Below are positions 5,042 through 44,080 of a stretch of 44,138 nt of DNA, piece after piece (within the stretch, counting starts at the first letter, position 1; the number at the start of each line of letters is the position of its first letter). A program made the position numbers and the translations under genes. The DNA is from Ilumatobacter nonamiensis YM16-303. GTDB taxonomy: Bacteria > Actinomycetota > Acidimicrobiia > Acidimicrobiales > Ilumatobacteraceae. The stretch lies in assembly GCF_000350145.1 (NCBI RefSeq), contig NZ_BAOL01000080.1, positions 1-44,138 on the forward strand, written 5' to 3'. Under the pieces are notes generated by a model, which did not search any database, was not told the DNA's origin, and was given only the letters and a program-made list of their open reading frames with translations.

Positions 5042-6457
5042 ATGACAGCGACCGAGAACTCCGAACTCGACACCGGAGCACGCTCGCCGGGCCTCTCCTA
5101 TCAGGACCTGCTCGACGCCGACACCCATCCGGTACACGAGGTCCTGCGCCTCGAATCTCCCAAGTACCTCGGCAGCGAGGACGTCCCCATCGAGCGGTAC
5201 ACCTCGCGGGAATGGCACCGACGAGAGGTCGACCAGATGTGGTCGAAGGTGTGGCAGTTCGCATGCCGCGAGGAACACATCCCCGAGGCCGGCGACTACA
5301 TCATCTACGAGATCGCGGAACTCTCGTTCCTCGTCGTGCGTCAGGACGACGGCTCGATCAAGTCGTATCCGAACGCCTGCCTCCACCGCGGCCGCCAACT
5401 CAAGGAGTACGACGGACACTGCTCCGAGATCCGTTGTCCGTTCCACGGATTCGCGTGGAAGCTGGACGGCAACCTGCAGGACGTGCCGGCGGCGTGGGAC
5501 TTCCCACACGTCGATCAGCGCCCTGACGACTTCACCTTGCCCGAGTGCAGCGTCGACACCTGGGCCGGGTTCGTCTTCATCAACCCCGACCCCGATGCCT
5601 CGCCGCTCGCCGAACAGCTCGGTGATCTGATCGAGCACTTCGAGGTGTGGAACCTGGAGGACCGCTACGTCGAAGGGCACGTGTCGCGGATCATCGAGGC
5701 GAACTGGAAGATCGCGCAGGAGGCGTTCTGCGAGGCGTACCACGTCAACGCCACACACCCGCAGATCCTCACGTACCTCGGCGACGTCAACAGCCAGGTC
5801 GACGTGTTCGAGAACTGCTCACGGGTGATCACGCCCGGTGGCACGCCGAGCCCGCTGCTGGGCGACGTCGACCTCACCGAGACCGACCTTGCACGGGCGA
5901 TGCTCGACGTCCGTGTCGACCACGAATCCCCCGTGTCGATTCAGGAGGGACACACGGCGCGCGCCACCTTGTCGCAGATGACGCGGGAGCGCTGGCGCCC
6001 GATCGTCGGCGACGCGGTCGATCAGATGAGCGACTCGGAGATGATGGACTCGCTCGACTACACGGCGTTTCCGAACTTCCACCCCTGGGGCGCGTTCAAC
6101 CGGATCGTGTACCGGTTCCGCCCGAACGGCGACGACCACCGCTCGGCGATCATGGAGTGCTTCCTGCTCTCGCCGTTCAAGGGTGAGCGACCGCCGCCGG
6201 CCGAGGAGATCAAGCTGGGCGTCGACGACCCCTGGACGGACGCCCCGGTGCTCGGAATGCTCGGCAAGGTCTTCCAGCAGGACGTGTTCAACATGGCCAA
6301 GGTGCAGAAGGGTCTCGAGACCACTCGGAAGCCGGGGGCGACGTTCTCCAATTACCAGGAGTCGAAGATCCGCTGGCTGCACACCTTGCTCGGCGAGTGG
6401 GTGAACGACGACGTGCCGGTCAGTGTCGGCACCGGAGCGAAAGCGCGCCAGTCGTGA
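5042..6457 (+). CDS. Rieske non-heme iron ring-hydroxylating oxygenase, alpha subunit
   Basis: Catalytic subunit that oxygenates an aromatic or related substrate, 471 residues, typical for the family. The Rieske [2Fe-2S] ligands are Cys113, His115 (CLHRGRQL) and Cys132, His135 (CPFHGF). The mononuclear iron site is in the C-terminal domain: ANWKIAQEAFCEAYHVNATH supplies His234 and His239. The start at 5042 agrees with the family N-terminus and a leaderless promoter; the long upstream extension of the frame is rejected. The next gene overlaps its stop (GTGA). No beta subunit, ferredoxin or reductase is adjacent, so it is probably an alpha-only oxygenase fed by a redox partner encoded elsewhere. 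Substrate unknown. Confidence 0.92.
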   Translation: MTATENSELDTGARSPGLSYQDLLDADTHPVHEVLRLESPKYLGSEDVPIERYTSREWHRREVDQMWSKVWQFACREEHIPEAGDYIIYEIAELSFLVVRQDDGSIKSYPNACLHRGRQLKEYDGHCSEIRCPFHGFAWKLDGNLQDVPAAWDFPHVDQRPDDFTLPECSVDTWAGFVFINPDPDASPLAEQLGDLIEHFEVWNLEDRYVEGHVSRIIEANWKIAQEAFCEAYHVNATHPQILTYLGDVNSQVDVFENCSRVITPGGTPSPLLGDVDLTETDLARAMLDVRVDHESPVSIQEGHTARATLSQMTRERWRPIVGDAVDQMSDSEMMDSLDYTAFPNFHPWGAFNRIVYRFRPNGDDHRSAIMECFLLSPFKGERPPPAEEIKLGVDDPWTDAPVLGMLGKVFQQDVFNMAKVQKGLETTRKPGATFSNYQESKIRWLHTLLGEWVNDDVPVSVGTGAKARQS

Positions 6458-8011: not shown

Positions 8012-8040
8012 CCCGGGCGTGGGCGTGGTTCACTCGGGGA

Positions 8041-9084
8041 ATGAGCAGTGATCGACCCACTCGACCGGATCCGACCACGATCGACGACCTCCCGACTCCG
8101 GCGCTCGTCGTGGAGAAATCGATCTTCGAATCGAACCTCGCTGCGATGGATGCCGTGCGACCGGGAACCGAGCTCCGCCCCCACGTGAAGGCGTTCAAGT
8201 CGACGGCGTTGGCCGCTCGTCTCGCCGCCGACGGCCACACCGGCTTCTGCTGCGCCACCCCGCGCGAGGTGGAGGGACTGGTTGCCGCCGGTCTCGGCCA
8301 CGACGTGTTGTTGGCCAACGAGTCGCTCGACCTCGCCCGTCTCGGTGTGCTCGTGGCGGACGACAGCGTCGAAGCGAACATCACCGCTGCCGTCGACTCC
8401 GACTCGACGGTCGACGCAGTGATCTCCAGCGGGATCCGGTCGGTGCTGATCGACGTCGAGGTCGGCCTTCCGCGCTGCGGGTGTGATTCGACGGACGCTG
8501 GACGACTGGCGGACCGCGCCCGATCCGCAGGGCTGGAGGTCCGCGGGGTGATGGGCTACGAGGGTCACTTGATGATGGTCGAGGATCGAGCAGAGCGCAT
8601 CGAGCGAGTCGGCGCCGCGATGGAGCAACTCGTCGCCGCGGCAGGCGACGTCGGCGGCGACATCGTCTCCGCCGGCGGCACGGGCACGTTCGACACCAAC
8701 ACGTGGTGCACAGAGATCCAGGCCGGCAGCTACACCCTGCTCGACAGCGATTACGCCAAGCTCGATCTTCCGTTCCAGGTCGCGCTGAACGTCCTCGGCA
8801 CGGTGATCTCGATCAGCCCGAAGGGGTGGATCATCGCCGACACCGGGCTCAAGTCGATGGCGATGGACCACGGCAATCCGTCGTGGGACGGCGGGGACGT
8901 GTTCTTCCTCTCCGACGAACACGCCACTCTGCTCCCGCCCGATTTCGAGAACTGGTCGGTCGGCGATCGCGTCCGGCTGCAACCGGCACACGTCGATCCC
9001 ACGATCGCGAAGCACGAGTGCATGTGGGTCGTCGACGGAGACGACATCGTCGACCGGTGGGAGGTCGATCTCCGCCACTGGTGA
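8041..9084 (+). CDS. D-threonine aldolase / D-serine dehydratase-like PLP enzyme (alanine racemase N-terminal fold)
   Basis: PLP- and metal-dependent fold-type III enzyme, 347 residues. The N-terminal barrel begins DDLPTPALVVEKSIFESNL; the Schiff-base lysine region is RPHVKAFKS, matching RPHxKxHK of the family. GTGTFDTNT gives the phosphate-binding loop (GGTGT) and QAGSYTLLDSDY follows as usual. The C-terminal beta domain ends AHVDPTIAKHECMWVVDGD, with the His-x-Cys metal pair seen in D-serine dehydratase/D-threonine aldolase. It likely cleaves a beta-hydroxy-D-amino acid to an aldehyde plus glycine, or dehydrates it. The ATG at 8041 has only GGGGA immediately before it, so initiation signals are weak. 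Confidence 0.88.
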   Translation: MSSDRPTRPDPTTIDDLPTPALVVEKSIFESNLAAMDAVRPGTELRPHVKAFKSTALAARLAADGHTGFCCATPREVEGLVAAGLGHDVLLANESLDLARLGVLVADDSVEANITAAVDSDSTVDAVISSGIRSVLIDVEVGLPRCGCDSTDAGRLADRARSAGLEVRGVMGYEGHLMMVEDRAERIERVGAAMEQLVAAAGDVGGDIVSAGGTGTFDTNTWCTEIQAGSYTLLDSDYAKLDLPFQVALNVLGTVISISPKGWIIADTGLKSMAMDHGNPSWDGGDVFFLSDEHATLLPPDFENWSVGDRVRLQPAHVDPTIAKHECMWVVDGDDIVDRWEVDLRHW

Positions 9085-16723: not shown

Positions 16724-16779
16724 TGGTCGCACCGCCCGACCGGTCCGGCGCGTTCGGACAGGTTGCGCGCGGGCGTGGC

Positions 16780-16785
16780 TACAGT
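16780..16785 (+). promoter_or_regulatory. -10-like element for the tetR gene
   Basis: TACAGT lies 10 bases before the ATG at 16796, with no Shine-Dalgarno in between, so the transcript leader would be only a few bases. The context GCTACAGTCC resembles the context CTACTGTCC at 17460-17468 before the DUF35 gene. Confidence 0.4.
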
Positions 16786-16795
16786 CCTGGACCAC

Positions 16796-17398
16796 ATGAC
16801 AACTTCCGCTGCACCTGACGACGGGCCGCCCGCGAGGATCGGGCGACCGCCCAAGGTCGATCGGGACGGCACGCCGACACGCGAGCGGTTGCTCCGCGCG
16901 GCGGCCGACGCGTGCGTCGAGTTCGGCTACGAAGGCGCCACGCTGTCCGACATCGCCCGCCGCGCCGAGGTGTCCACTCCCGCCATCTACAGCCACTTCT
17001 CCGGCAAGGCCGAACTCCTCGTCGAGGCGTGTCAGCGCGAGTTGAACACGATCAGCAGTAGCAAGCTCCGCGAGGTGGAGGGGCTCCGCGAACTGAGTCA
17101 GTTCTGGATCCAACCGGAGTTCGGCCGATCGAGGATCATCGTCGCCGAGATCCACTGCGCTGCGATTCGCCAACCCGACGTCGCCGAGTTGCTGGGCACG
17201 TGGCAGCAGTCGATCACGACCACGCTGGAGAACATGGCCGGACTGACGACCGCTCAAGCGCAGCAGTTGTTCCTGATCCTGATCGGTCTCGCGCACCTCG
17301 ATCAGGTGAAGGGGATCGACGTCTCCGCCGAGGCCACCGAAGCAGAGGTCTCCGCGGTGCTCGAGGGGTGGCTCGGCGATCGATATCTCGACCGCTGA
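16796..17398 (+). CDS. TetR/AcrR-family transcriptional regulator
   Basis: DNA-binding repressor of 200 residues. After a disordered, proline-rich stretch (IGRPPKVDR) the TetR N-terminal domain follows: TRERLLRAAADACVEFGYEG, then the helix-turn-helix ATLSDIARRAEVSTPAIYSHF. The C-terminal helical ligand-binding domain contains a Gln-rich part (LTTAQAQQLF). It lies between the ThuA-like gene and the DUF35-thiolase operon, both on the same strand. An operator-like dyad starts 75 bases after its stop, in front of the next operon. Related motifs upstream of other catabolic genes suggest it controls several units; CoA thioesters or fatty-acid-like ligands would be typical, but this is inference. 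Confidence 0.9.
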   Translation: MTTSAAPDDGPPARIGRPPKVDRDGTPTRERLLRAAADACVEFGYEGATLSDIARRAEVSTPAIYSHFSGKAELLVEACQRELNTISSSKLREVEGLRELSQFWIQPEFGRSRIIVAEIHCAAIRQPDVAELLGTWQQSITTTLENMAGLTTAQAQQLFLILIGLAHLDQVKGIDVSAEATEAEVSAVLEGWLGDRYLDR

Positions 17399-17538: not shown

Positions 17539-17982
17539 ATGACCACCACCGTTGCCGTCGCCGACGGCATCTTCGAGATCCGCGACGGAAAGCCCGTCCT
17601 GTTGGGGACCCGTTGCACGAACTGCGACAACCACATGTACCCCCGCCAGACCGGCTGCCCCCGGTGCCTGTTCAACGAGCAGGAGGACGTCGAACTCGCC
17701 ACCGAGGGCACGCTCTGGACGTGGACGGTGCAGGCGTTCCCGCCGAAGTCCCCGCCGTATCTCGGCCCGGTCGGTGACGACTTCGTCCCGTACGGCGTGG
17801 GGTACGTCGAACTTCCCGGACAACTCCGGGTCGAAGGACGACTCACGATCTCGGACCCCGACCAGCTGCAGATCGGCATGCCGATGGAGCTCGTGCTCGA
17901 TCCGCTGACCGTCGACGAGGACGGCAACCAGGTCGTCACCTACGCATTCGCACCCAAGAACGAGAACGGAGACCCGTCATGA
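17539..17982 (+). CDS. DUF35 OB-fold protein with zinc ribbon (thiolase/aldolase partner)
   Basis: Protein of 147 residues with a rubredoxin-like zinc ribbon, Cys26, Cys29, Cys40 and Cys43 (CTNC and CPRC), followed by a DUF35 OB fold (EGTLWTWTVQ, YGVGYVELPGQLRVEGRL). Such proteins bind thiolase-fold partners, and in steroid side-chain breakdown a DUF35 domain is required by the Ltp2 retro-aldolase. Here the partner is encoded directly downstream with an ATGA overlap. The ATG at 17539 follows GAGGGAG. It probably channels acyl-CoA to the partner; substrate unknown. Confidence 0.88.
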   Translation: MTTTVAVADGIFEIRDGKPVLLGTRCTNCDNHMYPRQTGCPRCLFNEQEDVELATEGTLWTWTVQAFPPKSPPYLGPVGDDFVPYGVGYVELPGQLRVEGRLTISDPDQLQIGMPMELVLDPLTVDEDGNQVVTYAFAPKNENGDPS

Positions 17983-19118
17983 GCGACGTCGCAATCGTCG
18001 GAATCGGAATGCACGAGTTCGGTCGCCACGACGGCATCTCGGGCATGGACCAGGGCGTCACCGCGGTGCGCCGCGCGCTCGCCGACTGTGGTCAGCAGTG
18101 GTCCGCCATGGAGTTCGCCGTCGGCGGCTCGATGGACGGAGGTGCCGCCGACACGATGGTCAGTCGGATCGGACTCACAGGCCTGCCGTTCACCAACGTC
18201 GTCAACGGCTGCGCCACGGGCGGAACCGCCCTCGCCCAAGCGGTCAACACGATCCAGTCCGGTGCCGGCGATCTCGGCATCGCGATCGGGTTCGACAAGC
18301 ACGAGAAGGGCGCGTTCCGGATCCGCGGCCCGCGCGGCAAGGACTGGTACGGCGGCTCCGGCCTCGCGCTCACCACGCAGTTCTTCGGCATGAAGATCAA
18401 CCGCTACATGCACCAGTACGGCATCACGCAGCCGACCTTGGCGAAGGTCGGGGCGAAGGCGTTCCGCAACGGTGCGTTGAACCCGATGGCGTGGCGCCGC
18501 AAGCCGCTCAGCGAGCAAGAGGTCGCCGAGTCGCTGATGCTCTCCTACCCCCTCACGCAGTACATGTTCTGCTCCCCCGGCGAAGGTGGCGTGGCGATGG
18601 TCCTGTGCCGCGCCGACAAGGCGAAGGAGTACACCGACCGCCCGATCTACCTCAAGGCCGCGGCCGTGCGGACCCGCAAGTTCGGTTCGTTCGAGGTCCT
18701 CGCCCCGTCGATCGCGATCGAGCACGATCCGGGCCCGACCGCCGCCGCGTCGAAGGCCGCGTTCGAGATGGCCGGGATCGGCCCGGAAGACGTCGATGTC
18801 GCCCAGTTGCAGGACACCGAAGCCGGTGCGGAGATCATGCACATGGCCGAGAACGGCTTCTGCGAGCACGGTGAGCAGGAGCAGATGCTCGCCAACGGCG
18901 AGACCGAGATCAACGGCCGCCTGCCGGTGAACACCGACGGCGGCTGCCTCGCGAACGGCGAGCCGATCGGCGCGTCCGGCCTGCGCCAGGTGTACGAGAA
19001 CGTGCTGCAGCTGCGCGGCGACGCCGGCGAGCGGCAGGTCCCGAACGACCCGAAGGTCGCCTACACCCACGTCTACGGTGCCCCTGGCATCAGCGGCGTC
19101 ACCATCCTTTCCCGCTAG
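17979..19118 (+). CDS. Thiolase-fold protein with altered catalytic motifs (SCP-x/Ltp2-like, putative C-C lyase)
   Basis: Thiolase superfamily protein of 379 residues. The N-terminal nucleophile region is kept: VNGCATGGTAL with Cys78. However the usual GHP-x-G motif is NGEPIGASG, with Glu328 where the catalytic His should be; the NxH-type region reads AQLQDTEAGAE; and the C-terminal Cys-Gly motif is replaced by YTHVYGAPG. It therefore probably does not carry out standard Claisen thiolysis. Thiolase-fold proteins paired with DUF35 proteins include the retro-aldolase Ltp2, so aldol cleavage of a hydroxyacyl-CoA is a fair alternative. It is translationally coupled to the DUF35 gene. An inverted repeat separates it from the dehydrogenase genes. 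Confidence 0.85.
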   Translation: MSDVAIVGIGMHEFGRHDGISGMDQGVTAVRRALADCGQQWSAMEFAVGGSMDGGAADTMVSRIGLTGLPFTNVVNGCATGGTALAQAVNTIQSGAGDLGIAIGFDKHEKGAFRIRGPRGKDWYGGSGLALTTQFFGMKINRYMHQYGITQPTLAKVGAKAFRNGALNPMAWRRKPLSEQEVAESLMLSYPLTQYMFCSPGEGGVAMVLCRADKAKEYTDRPIYLKAAAVRTRKFGSFEVLAPSIAIEHDPGPTAAASKAAFEMAGIGPEDVDVAQLQDTEAGAEIMHMAENGFCEHGEQEQMLANGETEINGRLPVNTDGGCLANGEPIGASGLRQVYENVLQLRGDAGERQVPNDPKVAYTHVYGAPGISGVTILSR

Positions 19119-19229: not shown

Positions 19230-20219
19230 ATGGAACTCTCGACCGACGTGTTGACGGACATGCACCGACGCATGGTGCGGATCCGTCTCTTCGAAGAAGC
19301 CGCCGGCAAACTCGCCGAGGCGGCGAAGCTCCCCGGCTTCCTCCACCTGTACGTCGGCCAGGAGGCCGTCGCCTCGGGAGTGTGCACGGCGCTCACCGAC
19401 CAGGACCAGATCACGTCGACGCACCGCGGTCACGGCCACCTCGTCGCCAAGGGCGGCGAGTTCAAGCCGATGATGGCCGAGCTGATGGGGAAGGCCACCG
19501 GCTACAACAAGGGCAAGGGCGGTTCGATGCACATCTCGAACCTCGATGTCGGGATGCTCGGCGCGAACGGCATCGTCGGTGCCGGTGCTCCGATCGCGGT
19601 CGGTGCCGGATTCGGGAACAAGCTGAAGGGCAACGGCAACGTCGCCGCCGCGTTCTTCGGTGACGGTTCCACCAACATCGGCGCGTTCCACGAAGCGGCC
19701 AACATGGCGTGCGCGTTGAAGCTCCCCGTCCTGTTCATCTGCGAGAACAACGAATACGGCGAGTTCACCGCCCGGGACAAGACCATGGCGATCACCGACA
19801 TCGTCGACCGCGCCGCCGGCTACGGGATGCCGGGCGTGATCGTCGACGGCATGGACGTCGTCGCGATCCACGAGGCAACCATCGAGGCGAAGAACCGTGC
19901 CGTGCGCGGCGAGGGCCCGTCACTGATCGAGGCCAAGACGTACCGCTTCTACAATCACCACGGCGTCCAGAACCTCGGGCTGAAGTACCGGACCGACGAC
20001 GAGGTCGCCGAGTGGAAGCAGCGCGATCCGATCTTCACCTTCGAAGACCGGATGATCGACGCCGGAACGGCAACCCGCGACGACTTCGACGGTGTGTGGG
20101 CCGAGCTCCGTGCCGACATCGACGAGGCAATCCAGTTCGCCGAGGACAGTCCCGTCCCCGACGTCGACCAGCTCCTGGTCGACGTGTACACCGAGATGCC
20201 GGCAGGAGCGACGTCATGA
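19230..20219 (+). CDS. 2-oxoacid/acetoin dehydrogenase E1 component, alpha subunit (AcoA-like)
   Basis: Thiamine-diphosphate-dependent subunit of 329 residues. HRGHGH (65-70) and GKGGSMH (95-101) are the substrate/TPP region, and the TPP motif runs from GDGSTN (144-149) to CENNEYGEF (171-179). Length and motifs match the alpha2-beta2 E1 type of pyruvate, branched-chain or acetoin dehydrogenases. With E1 beta, an AcoX-like protein and E2 downstream, the acetoin-type assignment is favoured: cleavage of acetoin or a related 2-ketone/2-oxoacid to acyl-CoA and aldehyde or CO2. The ATG at 19230 has a weak TGGA upstream. It lies on the same strand as the thiolase operon, after a palindromic repeat. 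Confidence 0.9.
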   Translation: MELSTDVLTDMHRRMVRIRLFEEAAGKLAEAAKLPGFLHLYVGQEAVASGVCTALTDQDQITSTHRGHGHLVAKGGEFKPMMAELMGKATGYNKGKGGSMHISNLDVGMLGANGIVGAGAPIAVGAGFGNKLKGNGNVAAAFFGDGSTNIGAFHEAANMACALKLPVLFICENNEYGEFTARDKTMAITDIVDRAAGYGMPGVIVDGMDVVAIHEATIEAKNRAVRGEGPSLIEAKTYRFYNHHGVQNLGLKYRTDDEVAEWKQRDPIFTFEDRMIDAGTATRDDFDGVWAELRADIDEAIQFAEDSPVPDVDQLLVDVYTEMPAGATS

Positions 20220-20298
20220 GCGTTCCCCGGCCACGCAGGCCGCTGTCGACCGCTCGCTCGCTGGCGCTCGCTCTCTCGCATTCGGAAAGGGGCTCAAA

Positions 20299-21288
20299 GT
20301 GAGTCGCAAGATCAGCTACGTCCAGGCGTTCAACGAAGCCGTCCGTCAAGAGATGCGCGCCGACGAGACGGTGTTCTGTGCCGGCGAGGACATCGGAGGA
20401 TTCGGCGGCGTGTTCCAGACCTACGCCGGCCTCCAGGAGGAGTTCGGCGAGGAACGCGTCGTCGACACGCCGATCAGCGAGCAGGCGATCATCGGCCTCG
20501 GCGTCGGTGCGGCCGCCACCGGATCGCGCCCGATCGTCGACATCATGTTCATGGACTTCATCTGCGTCGCGTTCGACCAGATCGTCAACCAGGCCGCGAA
20601 GATGAAGTACATGTTCGGCGGGTCGGCCACCGTCCCGCTCACGATCACCACCGGTGGCGGCGGTGGCCTGTCGGCGGCAGCACAGCACAGCCAGTCCCTC
20701 GAAGCGCTGATCTGCCACATCCCCGGACTCAAGGTCGTCCACCCGTCCAACCCGTACGACATGAAGGGGTTGATGACCGCCTGCATCCGCGAGGACAACC
20801 CGACGATCATGATCAAGCACAAGCGGTTGCTCGGCATGCAGGGCGAGGTCCCCGAAGAGCCGTACATGATCCCGCTCGGCACCGCGGCCACGCTGCGCGA
20901 AGGCGCCGACGTCACGGTCGTGGCATGGGGCCGCATGGTCAACGAGGCGTTCGACGTTGCCGAGAAGCTGGCCGAGGACGGCATCGACGTCGAAGTGATC
21001 GACCCGCGCACGCTCCAGCCACTGGACAGCGAGACGATCGTCGAGTCCGTCCGCAAGACGAACCGGGCCGTGATCGTGCACGAAGCGGTGCGCTTCGCCG
21101 GTCTGGGTGCCGAGGTCGCCGCCCAGATCCAGGAAGAGGCGTTCGACTACCTCGACGCACCCGTCGCCCGCGTCGCGGCTCCGTTCTCTCCGGTCCCGTT
21201 CACGCCTGCGCTCGAACAGCACTACCAGCCGTCCGCGGCACGGATCGAGCAGGCGATTCGGGACATCGTCGCCCGTCCCGGGGCCTGA
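20299..21288 (+). CDS. 2-oxoacid/acetoin dehydrogenase E1 component, beta subunit (AcoB-like)
   Basis: Transketolase-like beta subunit of 329 residues. It begins SRKISYVQAFNEAVRQEM from a GTG at 20299, behind GAAAGGGG; an in-frame ATG far upstream lies inside the E1 alpha gene and is rejected. Family motifs are GEDIGGFGGVF, RVVDTPISEQAIIGLGVGAA, DFICVAFDQIVNQAAKM and, in the C-terminal domain, VEVIDPRTLQPLD followed by VHEAVRFAGLGAEV. The gap of 79 bases from E1 alpha is wider than elsewhere in this operon and holds no obvious structure. Confidence 0.92.
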   Translation: MSRKISYVQAFNEAVRQEMRADETVFCAGEDIGGFGGVFQTYAGLQEEFGEERVVDTPISEQAIIGLGVGAAATGSRPIVDIMFMDFICVAFDQIVNQAAKMKYMFGGSATVPLTITTGGGGGLSAAAQHSQSLEALICHIPGLKVVHPSNPYDMKGLMTACIREDNPTIMIKHKRLLGMQGEVPEEPYMIPLGTAATLREGADVTVVAWGRMVNEAFDVAEKLAEDGIDVEVIDPRTLQPLDSETIVESVRKTNRAVIVHEAVRFAGLGAEVAAQIQEEAFDYLDAPVARVAAPFSPVPFTPALEQHYQPSAARIEQAIRDIVARPGA

Positions 21289-21292
21289 TCCG

Positions 21293-22369
21293 GTGCCGAC
21301 CGCTGCCGCCACCTCCAGGGGCCGAGCCCCGAGCGGCGACGCGGCAACGGTGGGCATCATCGTCAACCCCCACGCCGGGAAGGACATCCGTCGGCTCGTG
21401 TCCGCCGCTGGGCAGACCTCCGATGCGGTCAAGATCAGCATCATGCGACGCGTCGCCGCCGGCGCCATCGAGCAGGGTGCCGATCGCGTCCTGATGAGCA
21501 CCGACACGCATCACCTCGCGGAGCGTGCCGTCGAAGGGCTCGACGGGCCGATCGAATTCCTTGAGAGTCCGCAAACCGGTTCGCACCACGACACCGTCGC
21601 CGCGGCGCGATCCCTCTGGAAGCAGAACACACGAGCGGTCATCGCTCTGGGCGGCGACGGCACATGTCGTGACGTGGCAACCGGCTGGCCGGACGCTCCG
21701 CTGATCGCCATCTCGACGGGAACGAACAACGTGTTCCCCACGTCCGTCGACGGCACGACCGCCGGTGTCGCCGCGGCGCTCGTCGCCGCCGGAAGCGTGA
21801 AGTCGTCCGACGTCACCTCCAGGGCGAAGCGAGTGTCGTTGCAGATCGACGACCCGCAACGTGACACGCTCGTCCATGAGGAAGCCCTCGTCGAGGCAGC
21901 CCTGATCGACGCGACGTTCGTCGGTGCCCGTGCCGTTTCCGATCCTGCCTCGATCCGCTGGGTCGTCGCATGCATCGCCAGCCCATCGAGTACGGGACTC
22001 GCCGGCATCGCGGGCCGCGTTCACCCGCTCCGTCGAGATGATCCGGGTGGCGTTCTGATCCGCCTCGGTCCCGGGAGCCGCCGCGTTCGGGTTCCGTTGT
22101 CACCGGGGTCGTTCTCGACGCTCGACATCGCCTCGGTGGAGCCGCTCCGCGACGGCGACACGGTCGTCCTCACGGGCCGCGGCGTCTTGGCATACGACGG
22201 CGAACGGAACACTCCGGTATCAGCCGGGGCCACCATCTCCGTCTCGGTCAGCCGGACCGGCCCCCACATGATCGATGTCGACGAGGTGCTGCGACTCGCG
22301 GCACTCGATCGACGCTTCGACGTCTGCGCAGCAGACCACCCCTCACGAAAGGACACCCATGGCGACTGA
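21293..22369 (+). CDS. acoX: AcoX-like ATP-NAD kinase-fold protein of acetoin catabolism
   Basis: Protein of 358 residues with the diacylglycerol/NAD-kinase fold: GIIVNPHAGKDIRR at residues 21-34, glycine-rich LGGDGTCRD (119-127) and the second motif STGTNNVFP (141-149). AcoX proteins of acetoin operons have this architecture and an unsettled biochemical role. The gene sits between E1 beta (4 bases upstream) and E2 (overlap of 11 bases), which supports this identification over a housekeeping NAD kinase. The GTG start at 21293 is used. It may phosphorylate or sense a cofactor for the complex. Confidence 0.82.
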   Translation: MPTAAATSRGRAPSGDAATVGIIVNPHAGKDIRRLVSAAGQTSDAVKISIMRRVAAGAIEQGADRVLMSTDTHHLAERAVEGLDGPIEFLESPQTGSHHDTVAAARSLWKQNTRAVIALGGDGTCRDVATGWPDAPLIAISTGTNNVFPTSVDGTTAGVAAALVAAGSVKSSDVTSRAKRVSLQIDDPQRDTLVHEEALVEAALIDATFVGARAVSDPASIRWVVACIASPSSTGLAGIAGRVHPLRRDDPGGVLIRLGPGSRRVRVPLSPGSFSTLDIASVEPLRDGDTVVLTGRGVLAYDGERNTPVSAGATISVSVSRTGPHMIDVDEVLRLAALDRRFDVCAADHPSRKDTHGD

Positions 22370-23795
22370 GTTCCTCATGCCGAAGCTCGGACTCACGATG
22401 GAGGAGGCCACCATCGCGGAGTGGCTGATCGCCGATGGCGAGCAGGTCGAACCCGGTGCCGCGGTGCTGCGGATCGAGACCGACAAGACCGAGACCGACG
22501 TGGAGGCGCCCTCGAGCGGACGGCTCCACATCGCTGCCGACGTCGGCGACACGTTTGCGTGCGGAGAGCGGATCGGCTGGTTCCTCGACGATGGCGAGGC
22601 GCCGCCGACGGGTACCGCGCCCGCCGGTACCGCGTCCGCTCCACCCGCCACCGTGGCCGAAGCACCGTCGACTCCCGACATGGGGGCGACGGCGGTGTCG
22701 AGTGTCCAGTCGGAAGCGGGAGGACGAATCATCGCGTCGCCGCTCGCGAAGCGCGTCGCGAAGGAACGAGGAATCGACCTGCGCAACGTGCGCGGCACCG
22801 GACCCGGTGGCCGAATCGTGAACGCCGATCTCGACGGGGTGGAGGCCACTCCGACGCTCGCGGCCCCACCGGCCGCGGCGCGACCCGCCGCACGGGGCGG
22901 TCAGGTCGCGGCGACCGCGGCGGCGCGTCAGCTCGCCGATCTGCTCGGTGTCGATCTCTCCGCCGTTCCGGCCGATCCCGTCGACGGCCGCGTCTCACGC
23001 GATGGCGTGGCTCGGTTCGTGCGCTCGCTGATCGGAACGTCACCCGGAACAGGCATGCCCCCGCAAGCGGCGACGTCGGTCCCTGCACTCGCTCCCGCGA
23101 TGCAGGAGCCGACATCGGTCACCAAGCTGAGTGGGATGCGCGGCACGATCGCCAAGCGCATGCACGAATCGCTCGACCAGATGGCGCAGCTGTCGCTGTT
23201 CATGGACGCCGACCTCGATGCGATCGTCGCCGACCGCGCGCGCCGCAAGGCCGACGGTGCCGCACCGAGCTACACCGACTACGTGATCGCCGCCGCGGCA
23301 CGAGCCCTGCGTGCTCATCCCCACGTCAACTCCCAGATCACGGACGACGGCATCGCCCTCCTCCCCGACGTCCACGTCGGCATGGCCGTGGCACTCGACG
23401 GCGGGTTGATCGTGCCGGTCATCCGCGACACCGCTGACCGCGATCTCTCCTCTCTGGCGGCGGAATCGTCACGACTCGCGGAAGCGGCACGGTCCGGATC
23501 TCTCGGGCTCCCCGACCTGGAGGGCGGGACGTTCTCGGTCAGCACCCTCGGGATGTTCGGAGTCGACGGCTTCACCCCCGTCATCAACCCACCGAACACG
23601 GCGATCCTCGGAGTCGGCCGCCTTCGGGACGACCTGGTGCTCGACGACGATGGCAACGTCACGTCGATCAAGCGGCTCACGCTCAGCCTCACCTGGGACC
23701 ATCGAGCCTTCGACGGAGCGCCCGCCGCGGAGTTCTGCCGCGCGATCGTCGACCTCCTCGGTGACCCGGCCGCCCTCGACACCCCCGCCGACTGA
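22359..23795 (+). CDS. Dihydrolipoamide acyltransferase (E2) with two E3-binding-type domains
   Basis: Core acyltransferase of the dehydrogenase complex, 478 residues. The lipoyl domain (1-78) carries Lys43 in ETDKTETDV. After a Pro/Ala linker a peripheral-subunit-binding domain spans about 124-160 (ASPLAKRVAKERGIDL, GTGPGGRI). A second, more diverged copy spans about 184-222 (ATAAARQLADLLGVDLSAV, DGRVSRDGV). The catalytic domain (253-478) ends with DHRAFDGAPAAEF, holding the active His. The ATG lies behind GAAAGGAC inside the end of acoX. No E3 gene is present in the window, so E3 is shared or encoded elsewhere. Confidence 0.93.
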   Translation: MATEFLMPKLGLTMEEATIAEWLIADGEQVEPGAAVLRIETDKTETDVEAPSSGRLHIAADVGDTFACGERIGWFLDDGEAPPTGTAPAGTASAPPATVAEAPSTPDMGATAVSSVQSEAGGRIIASPLAKRVAKERGIDLRNVRGTGPGGRIVNADLDGVEATPTLAAPPAAARPAARGGQVAATAAARQLADLLGVDLSAVPADPVDGRVSRDGVARFVRSLIGTSPGTGMPPQAATSVPALAPAMQEPTSVTKLSGMRGTIAKRMHESLDQMAQLSLFMDADLDAIVADRARRKADGAAPSYTDYVIAAAARALRAHPHVNSQITDDGIALLPDVHVGMAVALDGGLIVPVIRDTADRDLSSLAAESSRLAEAARSGSLGLPDLEGGTFSVSTLGMFGVDGFTPVINPPNTAILGVGRLRDDLVLDDDGNVTSIKRLTLSLTWDHRAFDGAPAAEFCRAIVDLLGDPAALDTPAD

Positions 23796-23816
23796 GCCGC
23801 CGATCGGAGCATGCAG

Positions 23817-24287
23817 ATGGTCGACTACCAGAACCTCTTCCACGTCGGGATCCGGGTGCCGGACATCGCCGACGCGATGGACGAACTCGGCAACAGCATG
23901 GGCGTCACCTGGGCAGCCGTTCGGGAGAACCCGGCCCAGACCCTCTGGTCGCCCGAGAACGGACTCCAGGAGATCCACCTCAAGTTCGTGTACTCCGCGG
24001 AGGGCCCACAACACATCGAATTGCTCGAGGGCCCTCCCGACACGTTCTGGGACGGACGCGGGTGCACGGGAGCACACCACGTCGGAGTGTGGTCAAACGA
24101 TGTGGCGAGTGACACCGACGGCCTGATCGCCTCGGGGTGGACGCTGGTCGGTGCCCAGGTCGACCCCGCCGAGCACAACGGCTACGGGATGTTCACCTAC
24201 CTCCAGCCACCGACCGGTCTGATCGTCGAACTCGTCGACAGTTCCGTGCGCCCTCACTTCGAACAGTGGTGGGCCGGCACCGCCTGA
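23817..24287 (+). CDS. VOC-family (glyoxalase/bleomycin resistance/dioxygenase-fold) protein
   Basis: Metalloprotein of 156 residues with two beta-alpha-beta-beta-beta units. Candidate metal ligands occur at the expected four places: His in NLFHVGI, Glu in HIELLEG, His in HHVGVW and Glu in IVELVDS. Similar proteins are lactoylglutathione-lyase-like or methylmalonyl-CoA/ethylmalonyl-CoA epimerase-like enzymes. Two ATGs (23811, 23817) are possible; CGGAG at 23805-23809 gives proper spacing only to the second. It ends the dehydrogenase run, 21 bases after E2, and is probably co-transcribed. Function in the pathway unknown; aldehyde detoxification or epimerisation are options. Confidence 0.85.
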   Translation: MVDYQNLFHVGIRVPDIADAMDELGNSMGVTWAAVRENPAQTLWSPENGLQEIHLKFVYSAEGPQHIELLEGPPDTFWDGRGCTGAHHVGVWSNDVASDTDGLIASGWTLVGAQVDPAEHNGYGMFTYLQPPTGLIVELVDSSVRPHFEQWWAGTA

Positions 24288-42765: not shown

Positions 42766-42805
42766 TCTCCGAGGACGCGGAGCGACGAGCGGTGTGGAGG
42801 CCACG

Positions 42806-44080
42806 GTGGACGCAACAATGGACGAATCCCTCATCGAGCGGATCCGTCGCGACATGGCGTTCGAGTTCGACCGCACCGCTCCTCCCGAGGGTTTCCCGGC
42901 CTTCCACGACATCTCGACCGACCGCCACACGAGCGACCTGTTCCACGAGCTCGAACGGGAGCACCTGTGGACGAGAACCTGGGTGATCGGCGGGCGCGTC
43001 GAAGACGTCCCGAATCCCGGCGACTACATGACGTTCGACGATCTCGGTGTCCCACTCCTGATCGTGCGGGGCACGGACGGCGAGATCCGCTGCTTCTACA
43101 ACACGTGTCAGCACCGCGGTGCTCCGGTCGTCCGAGAAGAACGGGGGTCGTCACGACGGCTGCGCTGCCAGTACCACTCGTGGACGTACGAGGTCGACGG
43201 AGGGACCCTCGTGTCGATCCCCGACGAACGCGATTTCGTCGACCTCGACTGGGAGCAGCGCTGCCTCCCGCGTGCGAACTGCGACACCTACGGCGGGTTC
43301 ATCTTCGTCAACCGCGACCTCGACGCGACACCGCTCGGCGACTGGATCGCACCGCTCCGACCGATGCTCGATCCGTTCCAGACGACGGCGCTCCGCGAGG
43401 TCTACCGCGAGTCGCGCATCGTGCCGTGCAACTGGAAGGTGACCGCCGAGGCGTTCCTCGAGGTGTACCACTTCCGCCACATCCACTCCCACAACGGCGT
43501 CAGCGTGCTCGACAACCGAGGGGCGGCAATGGGCCTGTACCCGCATGGCCACAGCCGGATGATCACGCCGTACTCGAAGCAGAACGTGGAGCGCTCCGGC
43601 ATGGCGGCGTGGGACGACTGGAAGTACGTCGATCAACCCGGAATGCGCACGATCGACACGGTTCCGGCGATGGTCGACTGCACCAGCTCGGCCGTCAGCA
43701 TCTTCCCGAACACGATCATTCCGCTCGGGCGGATCGGGTTTCCGATCAACATCTTCTGGCCCGTCGACAAGAACACCACCCGACTGGATTGGATCTACTA
43801 CGCACTCCCGCCCGGAGGCGAGGACCGGTTCCCCGACGAACTCAGCGACGACTGGAAGTCGCGTCGTTCCGTCTACAACCAGATCATGGCCGAAGACGAG
43901 ATGAACATGGCTCCGATGCAGCGATCGATGGAGTCGCCGGCCCTGACCGGCATCCCGATCAACTACCAGGAACGTCGGATCTGGCACCTCCACGAGGAGA
44001 TCGACCGGATCATCGGCACCGAGAACATCCCCGAGCACCTCCGCATGGAGCCGTTGCTCGATCCGTACGTCGAGCGTTGA
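42806..44080 (+). CDS. Rieske non-heme iron oxygenase, alpha subunit (second copy)
   Basis: Catalytic oxygenase subunit of 424 residues. Rieske ligands are Cys101 and His103 (CQHRGAP) and Cys121 and His124 (CQYHSW). The mononuclear iron histidines are His222 and His227 in EVYHFRHIHSH, preceded by CNWKVTAEAF. The GTG at 42806 is chosen because GGAGG ends 5 bases upstream; the ATG at 42818 is the alternative. It is clearly a different subfamily from the oxygenase at 5042. No beta subunit or reductase is adjacent. It is divergent from the PEP-SDR-PPOX operon and is followed by palindromic repeats. Confidence 0.92.
   Translation: MDATMDESLIERIRRDMAFEFDRTAPPEGFPAFHDISTDRHTSDLFHELEREHLWTRTWVIGGRVEDVPNPGDYMTFDDLGVPLLIVRGTDGEIRCFYNTCQHRGAPVVREERGSSRRLRCQYHSWTYEVDGGTLVSIPDERDFVDLDWEQRCLPRANCDTYGGFIFVNRDLDATPLGDWIAPLRPMLDPFQTTALREVYRESRIVPCNWKVTAEAFLEVYHFRHIHSHNGVSVLDNRGAAMGLYPHGHSRMITPYSKQNVERSGMAAWDDWKYVDQPGMRTIDTVPAMVDCTSSAVSIFPNTIIPLGRIGFPINIFWPVDKNTTRLDWIYYALPPGGEDRFPDELSDDWKSRRSVYNQIMAEDEMNMAPMQRSMESPALTGIPINYQERRIWHLHEEIDRIIGTENIPEHLRMEPLLDPYVER

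Follow-up and report, generated by a model that had tools for sequence, protein, structure and literature searches.

The thiolase fold is a textbook case of one fold used for thiolysis, condensation, acyl transfer and aldol cleavage, and several of the enzymes that have it are paired with a DUF35 protein. Such a pair is encoded by the stretch of 44,138 nucleotides analysed here (the window), contig NZ_BAOL01000080.1 of Ilumatobacter nonamiensis YM16-303, whose genome amounts to 4.28 Mb in 399 contigs. The thiolase-fold protein of this pair has kept the nucleophilic Cys while carrying a carboxylate at the place of a catalytic His, and it thus offers a natural test of which half-site decides the chemistry.

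An excerpt of PMC3406046, which deals with a mycobacterial thiolase-like protein, assigns the Asn of the NEAF motif to the catalytic water, describes the GHP motif as part of the oxyanion hole and gives the Cys of the CxG motif as the base. In the aldolases, the catalytic residues are Tyr294 of YDHF and Tyr344 for Ltp2, Tyr302 and Cys304 of YDCY for Sal, and CtSal has a Gly where thiolases have the nucleophilic Cys (PMC12329534, excerpt). The same excerpt indicates that the authors of the Sal study think that TbSLP, which has YDCF, is an aldolase, and that CX2C-X10-CX2C is the zinc-ribbon pattern of DUF35 proteins. In the case of ibuprofen, propionyl-CoA was ascribed to the thiolase encoded by ipfDE (PMC9195938, excerpt). 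The IpfD protein, which we identified in the record of plasmid pIBU218 by its place between dioxygenase genes and an OB-fold gene (the record says "hypothetical protein"), has a Gly and YDAF and no GHP. In the branch that contains the DUF35-linked and SCP2 thiolases, HDxF is the regular motif, not NxH/NEAF, and HDCF contains the second Cys of the SCP2 thiolases. Alignments indicate that the Cys of the C-terminal CxG is already missing from the zebrafish SCP2-thiolase and from BbsB, a component of the BbsAB thiolase of anaerobic toluene breakdown.

The DUF35/Thiolase-Fold Gene Pair

The pair and its diagnostic codons are located as follows, with the evidence in brackets.

17979..19118, + strand: thiolase-fold protein of 379 aa, member of the Cys/QDTE/GEP family (open reading frame list, Pfam, homologues, motifs, AlphaFold model)
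17539..17982, + strand: DUF35 / ChsH2-type protein of 147 aa with zinc ribbon and OB fold (Pfam, PDB matches, sequence)
18210..18212, + strand: codon of Cys78, the kept nucleophile position (alignment with the nucleophile of SCP2-thiolase and BbsB)
18810..18821, + strand: codons of Q278-D279-T280-E281, in place of HDxF (motif reading, alignments, clade frequencies)
18957..18965, + strand: codons of G327-E328-P329, in place of GHP (motif reading, alignments, clade frequencies)
19074..19088, + strand: codons of Y366-G-A-P-G370, the C-terminal loop where CxG would be (motif reading, alignment)

The coordinates and motifs given in a preliminary description of this DNA are all confirmed: Cys78 lies in NGCATGG, residues Q278-E281 in LQDTEA, Glu328 in NGEPIGASG and the loop YGAPG at 366-370. 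That description had treated all the departures from a standard thiolase as anomalies and had taken NxH as the reference for LQDTEA. The replacements of HDxF by QDTE and of GHP by GEP are real, the His of HDxF being Gln278 and the equivalent of the second Cys being Thr280. The reference motif in this branch is HDxF, and YGAPG is not abnormal in itself since SCP2-thiolase and BbsB also lack the C-terminal Cys. With Gln278 and Glu328 in place of both catalytic His, standard thiolase chemistry would indeed not be expected. The possibility that other His fill the thiolase positions, named earlier as a refutation, is not borne out by the alignments, in which these positions are Gln and Glu. In the NCBIfam scan of the thiolase-fold protein, no model scored above its cut-off.

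The pairing with a DUF35 gene, also pointed out earlier, is confirmed: the adjoining gene starts with an ATG at 17539, and its stop overlaps the thiolase ATG by 4 nt. Its product has the CX2C-X10-CX2C pattern and is predicted to consist of a zinc ribbon and an OB fold; both Pfam matches are above the cut-off (OB_ChsH2_C 62.6 bits, zf-ChsH2 30.7 bits), and the PDB matches are the DUF35 protein of 6esq, ChsH2 and BbsA.

The AlphaFold model of the thiolase-fold protein has a mean predicted local distance difference test score of 87.5, with values below 50 at 118-123, 125-129 and 239-244. Compared with solved structures, this model gives Z scores of 52.9 with the 6esq thiolase, 52.1 with the zebrafish SCP2-thiolase (6hrv_B), 51.5 with a Pyrococcus thiolase and 51.1 with BbsB, and lower ones with PhlC-type chains (48.0), TbSLP (47.0), Ltp2 (45.6) and Sal (43.6). 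By these scores, the predicted structure is nearer to true thiolases than to the Ltp2 and Sal aldolases.

Distribution and Constancy of the Cys/QDxE/GEP Family

The homologue set comprised the best 80 of at least 573 relatives' loci, loci from a sample of the class and ten named plasmid loci; loci of three other thiolase-fold types were added for comparison. Motifs were counted in the 206 rows that each fill at least 300 of the 378 profile positions. Since the collection started from a few seed sequences and proceeded by similarity, the counts are not population frequencies. Cys with QD[T/S][E/D] and GEP is found in 124 rows (QDTE 108, QDTD 12, QDSE 4). The remainder consists of 47 rows with Cys/HDCF/GHP, 27 with YDxF or YENF (all with Gly in place of Cys and without GHP), 7 with Ser/HDAF/GHP and an odd one. 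GEP without Cys, GEP with HDxF and GHP with QDxE are all absent, and the motif sets are unmixed except for the odd row, L202 (Cys, QDNT, GEA). This lone intermediate-looking protein is possibly an intermediate, or an independent case of the same replacement.

Frequencies were computed on 123 clade members, leaving out the most basal one, L191, which also has Q278 and E328. At the HDxF place, they have Q at 1.00, versus H at 1.00 in the 47 SCP2-like rows and Y at 1.00 in the 27 YDxF/YENF rows; at the GHP place, E at 1.00 is opposed to H at 1.00 in the SCP2-like rows. More generally, E202, Q278, E291, Q300 and E328 all reach 1.00 (rounded) in the clade, and none of them is found in the SCP2-like rows. 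L191 shares Q278, E202, E291, E328, His12 and S333, most other clade-specific residues being missing. The constancy of E202, Q278, E291, Q300 and E328 argues for selection and against decay, and the family is, as far as its sequences tell, an old and constrained variant of the DUF35-linked thiolases.

The family is found in Actinomycetota, Alphaproteobacteria, Gammaproteobacteria and one myxobacterial bin. Matches were obtained in 33 of 296 genomes of the class sample (E <= 1e-80) and in 8 of 296 genomes of the phylum sample (E <= 1e-100), the genome under study being included in both counts, and the same motifs were read in seven additional loci, which belong to four genomes of this phylum. 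The closest titled relatives of the window protein (98 and 96% identity) come from uncultured Ilumatobacter bins. Two bins titled Bifidobacterium breve (L068 and L074) also carry a family gene, with 78% identity to that of the window, much as in Acidimicrobiia-type bins; they are probably mislabelled or mixed.

Linkage to DUF35 was assessed in 90 loci (the 80 best relatives and the 10 plasmid loci, not dereplicated). In 78 of them, DUF35 is encoded at most 300 bases upstream; 4 others are truncated by the end of a contig, and 8 do not pass this test. Searches aimed at the family, at its motifs and at its operon among openly licensed papers in PubMed Central listed no title or start of abstract that names it. 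In the same way, no substrate was found in the parts seen of the estrogen-cluster papers, of the saponin paper on a tomato Sphingobium and of one paper on a "thiolase family protein". The tomato saponin strain, Sphingobium TomTYG65, carries one family copy. Annotated plasmid records call the family member "thiolase family protein" or, in one of them, "acetyl-CoA acetyltransferase". Judging from the sequences compared, this conserved DUF35-linked thiolase variant is real, and no characterised member was found.

Phylogeny

Two unrooted trees were built with the motif columns excluded. The quick one contains 66 rows, that is, an identity-limited choice from the 206 (GEP 16/124, HDCF/GHP 16/47, Ser 6/7, YDxF 25/27, odd 1/1) and two PDB rows. 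The careful one contains 52, after removal of 6 long or odd rows (including IpfD and L202) and thinning of 8 others. The 16 GEP representatives form one clade, with Shimodaira-Hasegawa-like approximate likelihood ratio (SH-aLRT) values of 96 in the quick tree and 98/97 in the careful one. The placement in a superfamily tree that had been suggested as a check thus gives a divided answer: the GEP and YDxF rows are separate clades in both free trees, but their joint grouping is not rejected by the approximately unbiased (AU) test (p-AU 0.736). The ancestry is therefore less clear than the residues, and the sequences leave room for a common origin of the GEP family with the YDxF aldolases.

The genome of I. 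nonamiensis contains a second thiolase-fold gene (L002, G000:C397:4487-5596), with a Ser for the nucleophile Cys and intact HDAF and GHP. A DUF35 zinc ribbon is encoded about 0.3 kb from it, at G000:C397:5902-5991. Seven rows of this Ser/HDAF/GHP type were found, and their six representatives form one clade in both trees.

Proposed Mechanism and Alternatives

The observed basis for a mechanism consists of the residues, their constancy in relatives, the single clade, the linkage to DUF35 and the presence in the operon of kinds of genes that make acyl-CoA. The reading that we favour, with a probability of about 0.48, is that the acyl-thioester on Cys78 is kept, that the second half-site has been rebuilt with Glu and Gln, and that the enzyme catalyses a thiolase-like C-C cleavage. 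Cys78 would attack a carbonyl group in a substrate of acyl-CoA type, for which a 3-oxoacyl-CoA or a comparable 1,3-dicarbonyl is the likeliest candidate. The tetrahedral intermediate would be held, as in thiolases, by a backbone oxyanion hole at Cys78 and by the C-terminal glycine loop. Gln278 would act as hydrogen-bond donor in lieu of the HDxF His. The acid/base function towards the leaving carbanion, otherwise that of the second Cys and the GHP His, would fall to Glu328, possibly assisted by Glu281. Overall, an unusual substrate would be cleaved at a C-C bond in a thiolase-like (retro-Claisen) manner. The DUF35 protein could contribute to CoA binding or to the form of the pocket, and the starting acyl-CoA would come from the E1/E2 complex here and from a CoA ligase in other genomes.

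The acyl-Cys78 step is likely because none of the 124 GEP rows lacks the Cys, and C-C cleavage is favoured because the neighbours resemble beta-oxidation genes (acyl-CoA dehydrogenase or ACAD, enoyl-CoA hydratase or ECH, short-chain dehydrogenase/reductase or SDR, ligase). Proton handling is probably ensured by Glu328 with Gln278 as donor, and Glu/Asp281 may assist. A thiolase-like reaction would probably be performed here in an unfamiliar way. In broader terms, it can be tentatively proposed, at somewhat less than even odds, that the family represents an uncharacterised catalytic class, with a Cys-Gln-Glu site in place of Cys-His-Cys/His, carrying out a C-C cleavage or acyl transfer that is new to the superfamily, and that its supply comes from a CoA ligase in some cases and from an acetoin-dehydrogenase-like complex in others.

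Several observations weigh against thiolase-like cleavage. The DUF35 linkage is not universal: adjacency fails in 8 of the 90 loci, L036 and L126 having a DUF35 gene farther upstream, and among the seven further loci, L204 and L206 are without DUF35 among their called genes. P450, Rieske and other genes are likewise frequent near the non-dereplicated family loci. When GEP and YDxF are held together, the log-likelihood is 11.12 above that of the quick free tree (p-AU 0.736), so that the quick tree had missed a better-scoring one uniting GEP with the aldolase class. TbSLP, with its YDCF, has a Z of 47.0, between the thiolases and Ltp2. No tested example of an acidic side chain in place of the GHP His was found and, to our knowledge, no substrate or activity has been reported for any family member.

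The main rival is an acyltransferase or a thioester hydrolase, in which Cys78 would receive an acyl group from CoA and hand it on to water or to an acceptor other than carbon, Glu328 being the base and no C-C bond being formed or cleaved. This is unlikely, though it agrees with the pattern of changes: the half that forms the acyl-enzyme is intact, and the changes affect the residues that deal with the carbanion (the His of HDxF and of GHP, and the second Cys). PhlC, for which density of an acetyl-Cys88 was described, is a precedent for a DUF35-partnered acyltransferase with this fold, but it transfers to carbon and still has a GHP-type His347 (PMC6392133, excerpt). Furthermore, the neighbourhood points to no acceptor, the neighbours being beta-oxidation-like.

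The preliminary description had drawn a parallel with the Ltp2-DUF35 retro-aldolase. A retro-aldolase of the Ltp2/Sal/IpfD kind shares with the window protein the fold and the DUF35 partner, the AU test does not reject a common origin with the YDxF clade, and genes of the GEP and YDxF kinds co-occur in one cluster on two Rhodococcus plasmids. However, the characterised enzymes need the Tyr of YDxF, and CtSal has a Gly at the nucleophile position (PMC12329534, excerpt). Gly and Tyr are found in 27 of 27 YDxF/YENF rows versus Cys and Gln in the 124 GEP rows, so that a kept nucleophile and an absent Tyr are the reverse of the aldolase residues. In both mixed Rhodococcus clusters, moreover, each kind has a gene to itself and a DUF35 of its own. 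An Ltp2-type aldolase was dropped as the best reading on this residue test (Cys78 and Gln278, no YDxF Tyr), and we consider it improbable. On present evidence, the anomaly had been seen correctly and the analogue wrongly chosen.

An ordinary thiolase in which other His residues occupy the catalytic places is very improbable. Clade-specific conserved His do exist (His12 and His108), but they lie on other segments, His108 is a Met in the basal L191, and the aligned positions are Gln and Glu at 1.00. A protein devoid of catalytic activity, serving DUF35 or another enzyme as a structural partner, would fit the loss of both His (of HDxF and of GHP) and of the second Cys but is scarcely credible given that Cys78, Q278 and E328 occur together in 124 of 124 rows from several phyla and that the scanned genes adjoining the pair include no second thiolase gene.

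Two other comparisons were tried and set aside. In enzymes of the HMG-CoA synthase / OleA type, a catalytic Glu comes near the Cys from another segment; the sole candidate seen by eye in the N-terminal half, Glu45, is a Gln in the alignment consensus. CerJ/ChlB3 was considered as a precedent for an acid at the GHP position, but ChlB3 keeps the His, with an Asp five residues later (PMC9573744, excerpt).

Genetic Neighbourhood

The genes surrounding the pair in the window are listed below.

16763..17398, + strand: TetR-type regulator, upstream (Pfam TetR_N)
19230..20219, + strand: E1 alpha of a 2-oxoacid/acetoin-type dehydrogenase (Pfam E1_dh, 287 bits)
20245..21288, + strand: E1 beta, start approximate (Pfam Transket_pyr and Transketolase_C; NCBIfam NF006667, 372 bits for a cut-off of 321)
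21293..22369, + strand: protein with NAD-kinase/diacylglycerol-kinase fold, start inferred (Pfam NAD_kinase 41.5 bits, DAGK_cat 33.6 bits)
22359..23795, + strand: E2 dihydrolipoamide acyltransferase, start inferred (Pfam 2-oxoacid_dh, E3_binding, Biotin_lipoyl)
23811..24287, + strand: VOC (Glyoxalase_4) protein, end of the co-directed run (Pfam Glyoxalase_4, 50.7 bits)

A gene for a ThuA protein also lies upstream of the pair. From its place among the E1 and E2 genes, we take the gene at 21293..22369 to be AcoX-like. For the VOC protein, no solved structure was found by sequence at E values up to 0.1.

Neighbours in the 90 loci were counted from matches to named query proteins only, all-against-all clustering being muddied by shadow open reading frames in this GC-rich DNA. 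Within 8 kb (E <= 1e-12), the counts were 52 for AMP-ligase, 49 for SDR2-type proteins, 26 for VOC, 23 for P450, 16 for ACAD, 15 for E2, 14 for ECH and 12 for E1 alpha. A downstream VOC gene on the same strand was then sought at E <= 1e-8 with two additional VOC queries, and 28 loci qualified. The slot between the thiolase and VOC genes holds an AMP-ligase in 18 of them (one with a P450 behind the ligase), E1 alpha-E1 beta-AcoX-E2 in 4, ACAD-E1 alpha-E1 beta-E2 in 4 and nothing detected in 2. An operon with ACAD, E1, E2 and VOC genes is carried by plasmids of N. aromaticivorans, Novosphingobium ES2-1, Croceicoccus, N. humi (whose operon record ends before the thiolase gene) and N. capsulatum, and a plasmid of Sphingobium TomTYG65 has the same operon without VOC. 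Where the VOC gene is annotated in these operons, its place is that of the VOC gene in the window.

Since both ligases and these dehydrogenase complexes make acyl-CoA, their swap in one slot points to acyl-CoA supply. This suggests that the E1/E2 dehydrogenase supplies acyl-CoA to the thiolase pathway rather than being fed by it, although a later role is also conceivable. The earlier proposal of a lyase feeding the dehydrogenase genes is thus not favoured, with a ligase in 18 of the 28 same-slot loci and E1/E2 in 8.

On the two Rhodococcus plasmids, a YDxF gene and a GEP gene, each with its own DUF35, lie in a single cluster, so that one pathway may use both chemistries. The YDxF and DUF35 pairs are at 9118-10718 in L122 and 10719-12340 in L123, and the cluster is also annotated with CoA transferases and a phosphotransferase. 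In view of the generic thiolase or acetyltransferase annotation, Rhodococcus and sphingomonad catabolic clusters with a family gene may have been misassigned. The presence of the operon in the culturable N. aromaticivorans DSM 12444, whose DUF35/thiolase pair is SARO_RS18650/18655 on pNL2, makes the proposal testable.

Elsewhere in the window, the product of positions 8035-9081 combines an Ala_racemase_N with a D-ser_dehydrat domain and belongs to the D-threonine aldolase / D-serine dehydratase type. The window also encodes two alpha subunits of Rieske oxygenases, at 5045-6454 and 42803-44077, and each of them matches five NCBIfam models, far under the cut-offs.

Comparison with Known Enzymes

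The system of 6esq shares the DUF35 protein, and its thiolase gives the highest structure Z, but that thiolase retains HDCF and the GH of GHA. The genes adjacent to the window pair, scanned with Pfam, include no HMG-CoA synthase. The type 1 SCP2-thiolase of zebrafish (6hsj/6hrv) has the same fold and nucleophile Cys, no C-terminal CxG Cys and 31% identity with the window protein over 350 aligned residues; it differs in retaining HDCF and GHP, and we know of no DUF35 partner for it. The benzoylsuccinyl-CoA thiolase BbsAB (7pxp) is alike in combining a thiolase fold, with the nucleophile Cys at the same place, and a DUF35 subunit (phmmer E 2.2e-43), but BbsB has HDAF and GHP where the window protein has QDTE and GEP.

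The Friedel-Crafts acylase PhlABC also associates a thiolase-like subunit, PhlC, with acyl-Cys88, and a DUF35 subunit, PhlB; unlike the window protein, PhlC retains the GHP-type His347, and the complex includes a KAS/HMGCS-like subunit, PhlA (PMC6392133, excerpt). The scanned genes adjacent to the window pair (ThuA, SDR, TetR, DUF35, E1/E2, NAD-kinase-fold, VOC) contain no such subunit. Ltp2-ChsH2 and Sal-Shy for steroids and IpfD-IpfE for ibuprofen likewise combine the thiolase fold with DUF35, but they have the Tyr of YDHF, YDCY or YDAF, Sal and IpfD have a Gly for the Cys, and IpfD has no GHP. Compared with Ltp2 and Sal, the window protein has the DUF35 partner gene but neither the Tyr of YDxF nor the loss of the Cys; compared with ordinary SCP2/BbsB-type thiolases, it has the fold and the nucleophile Cys but neither the His of HDxF nor that of GHP. 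By its predicted catalytic residues, it fits neither class.

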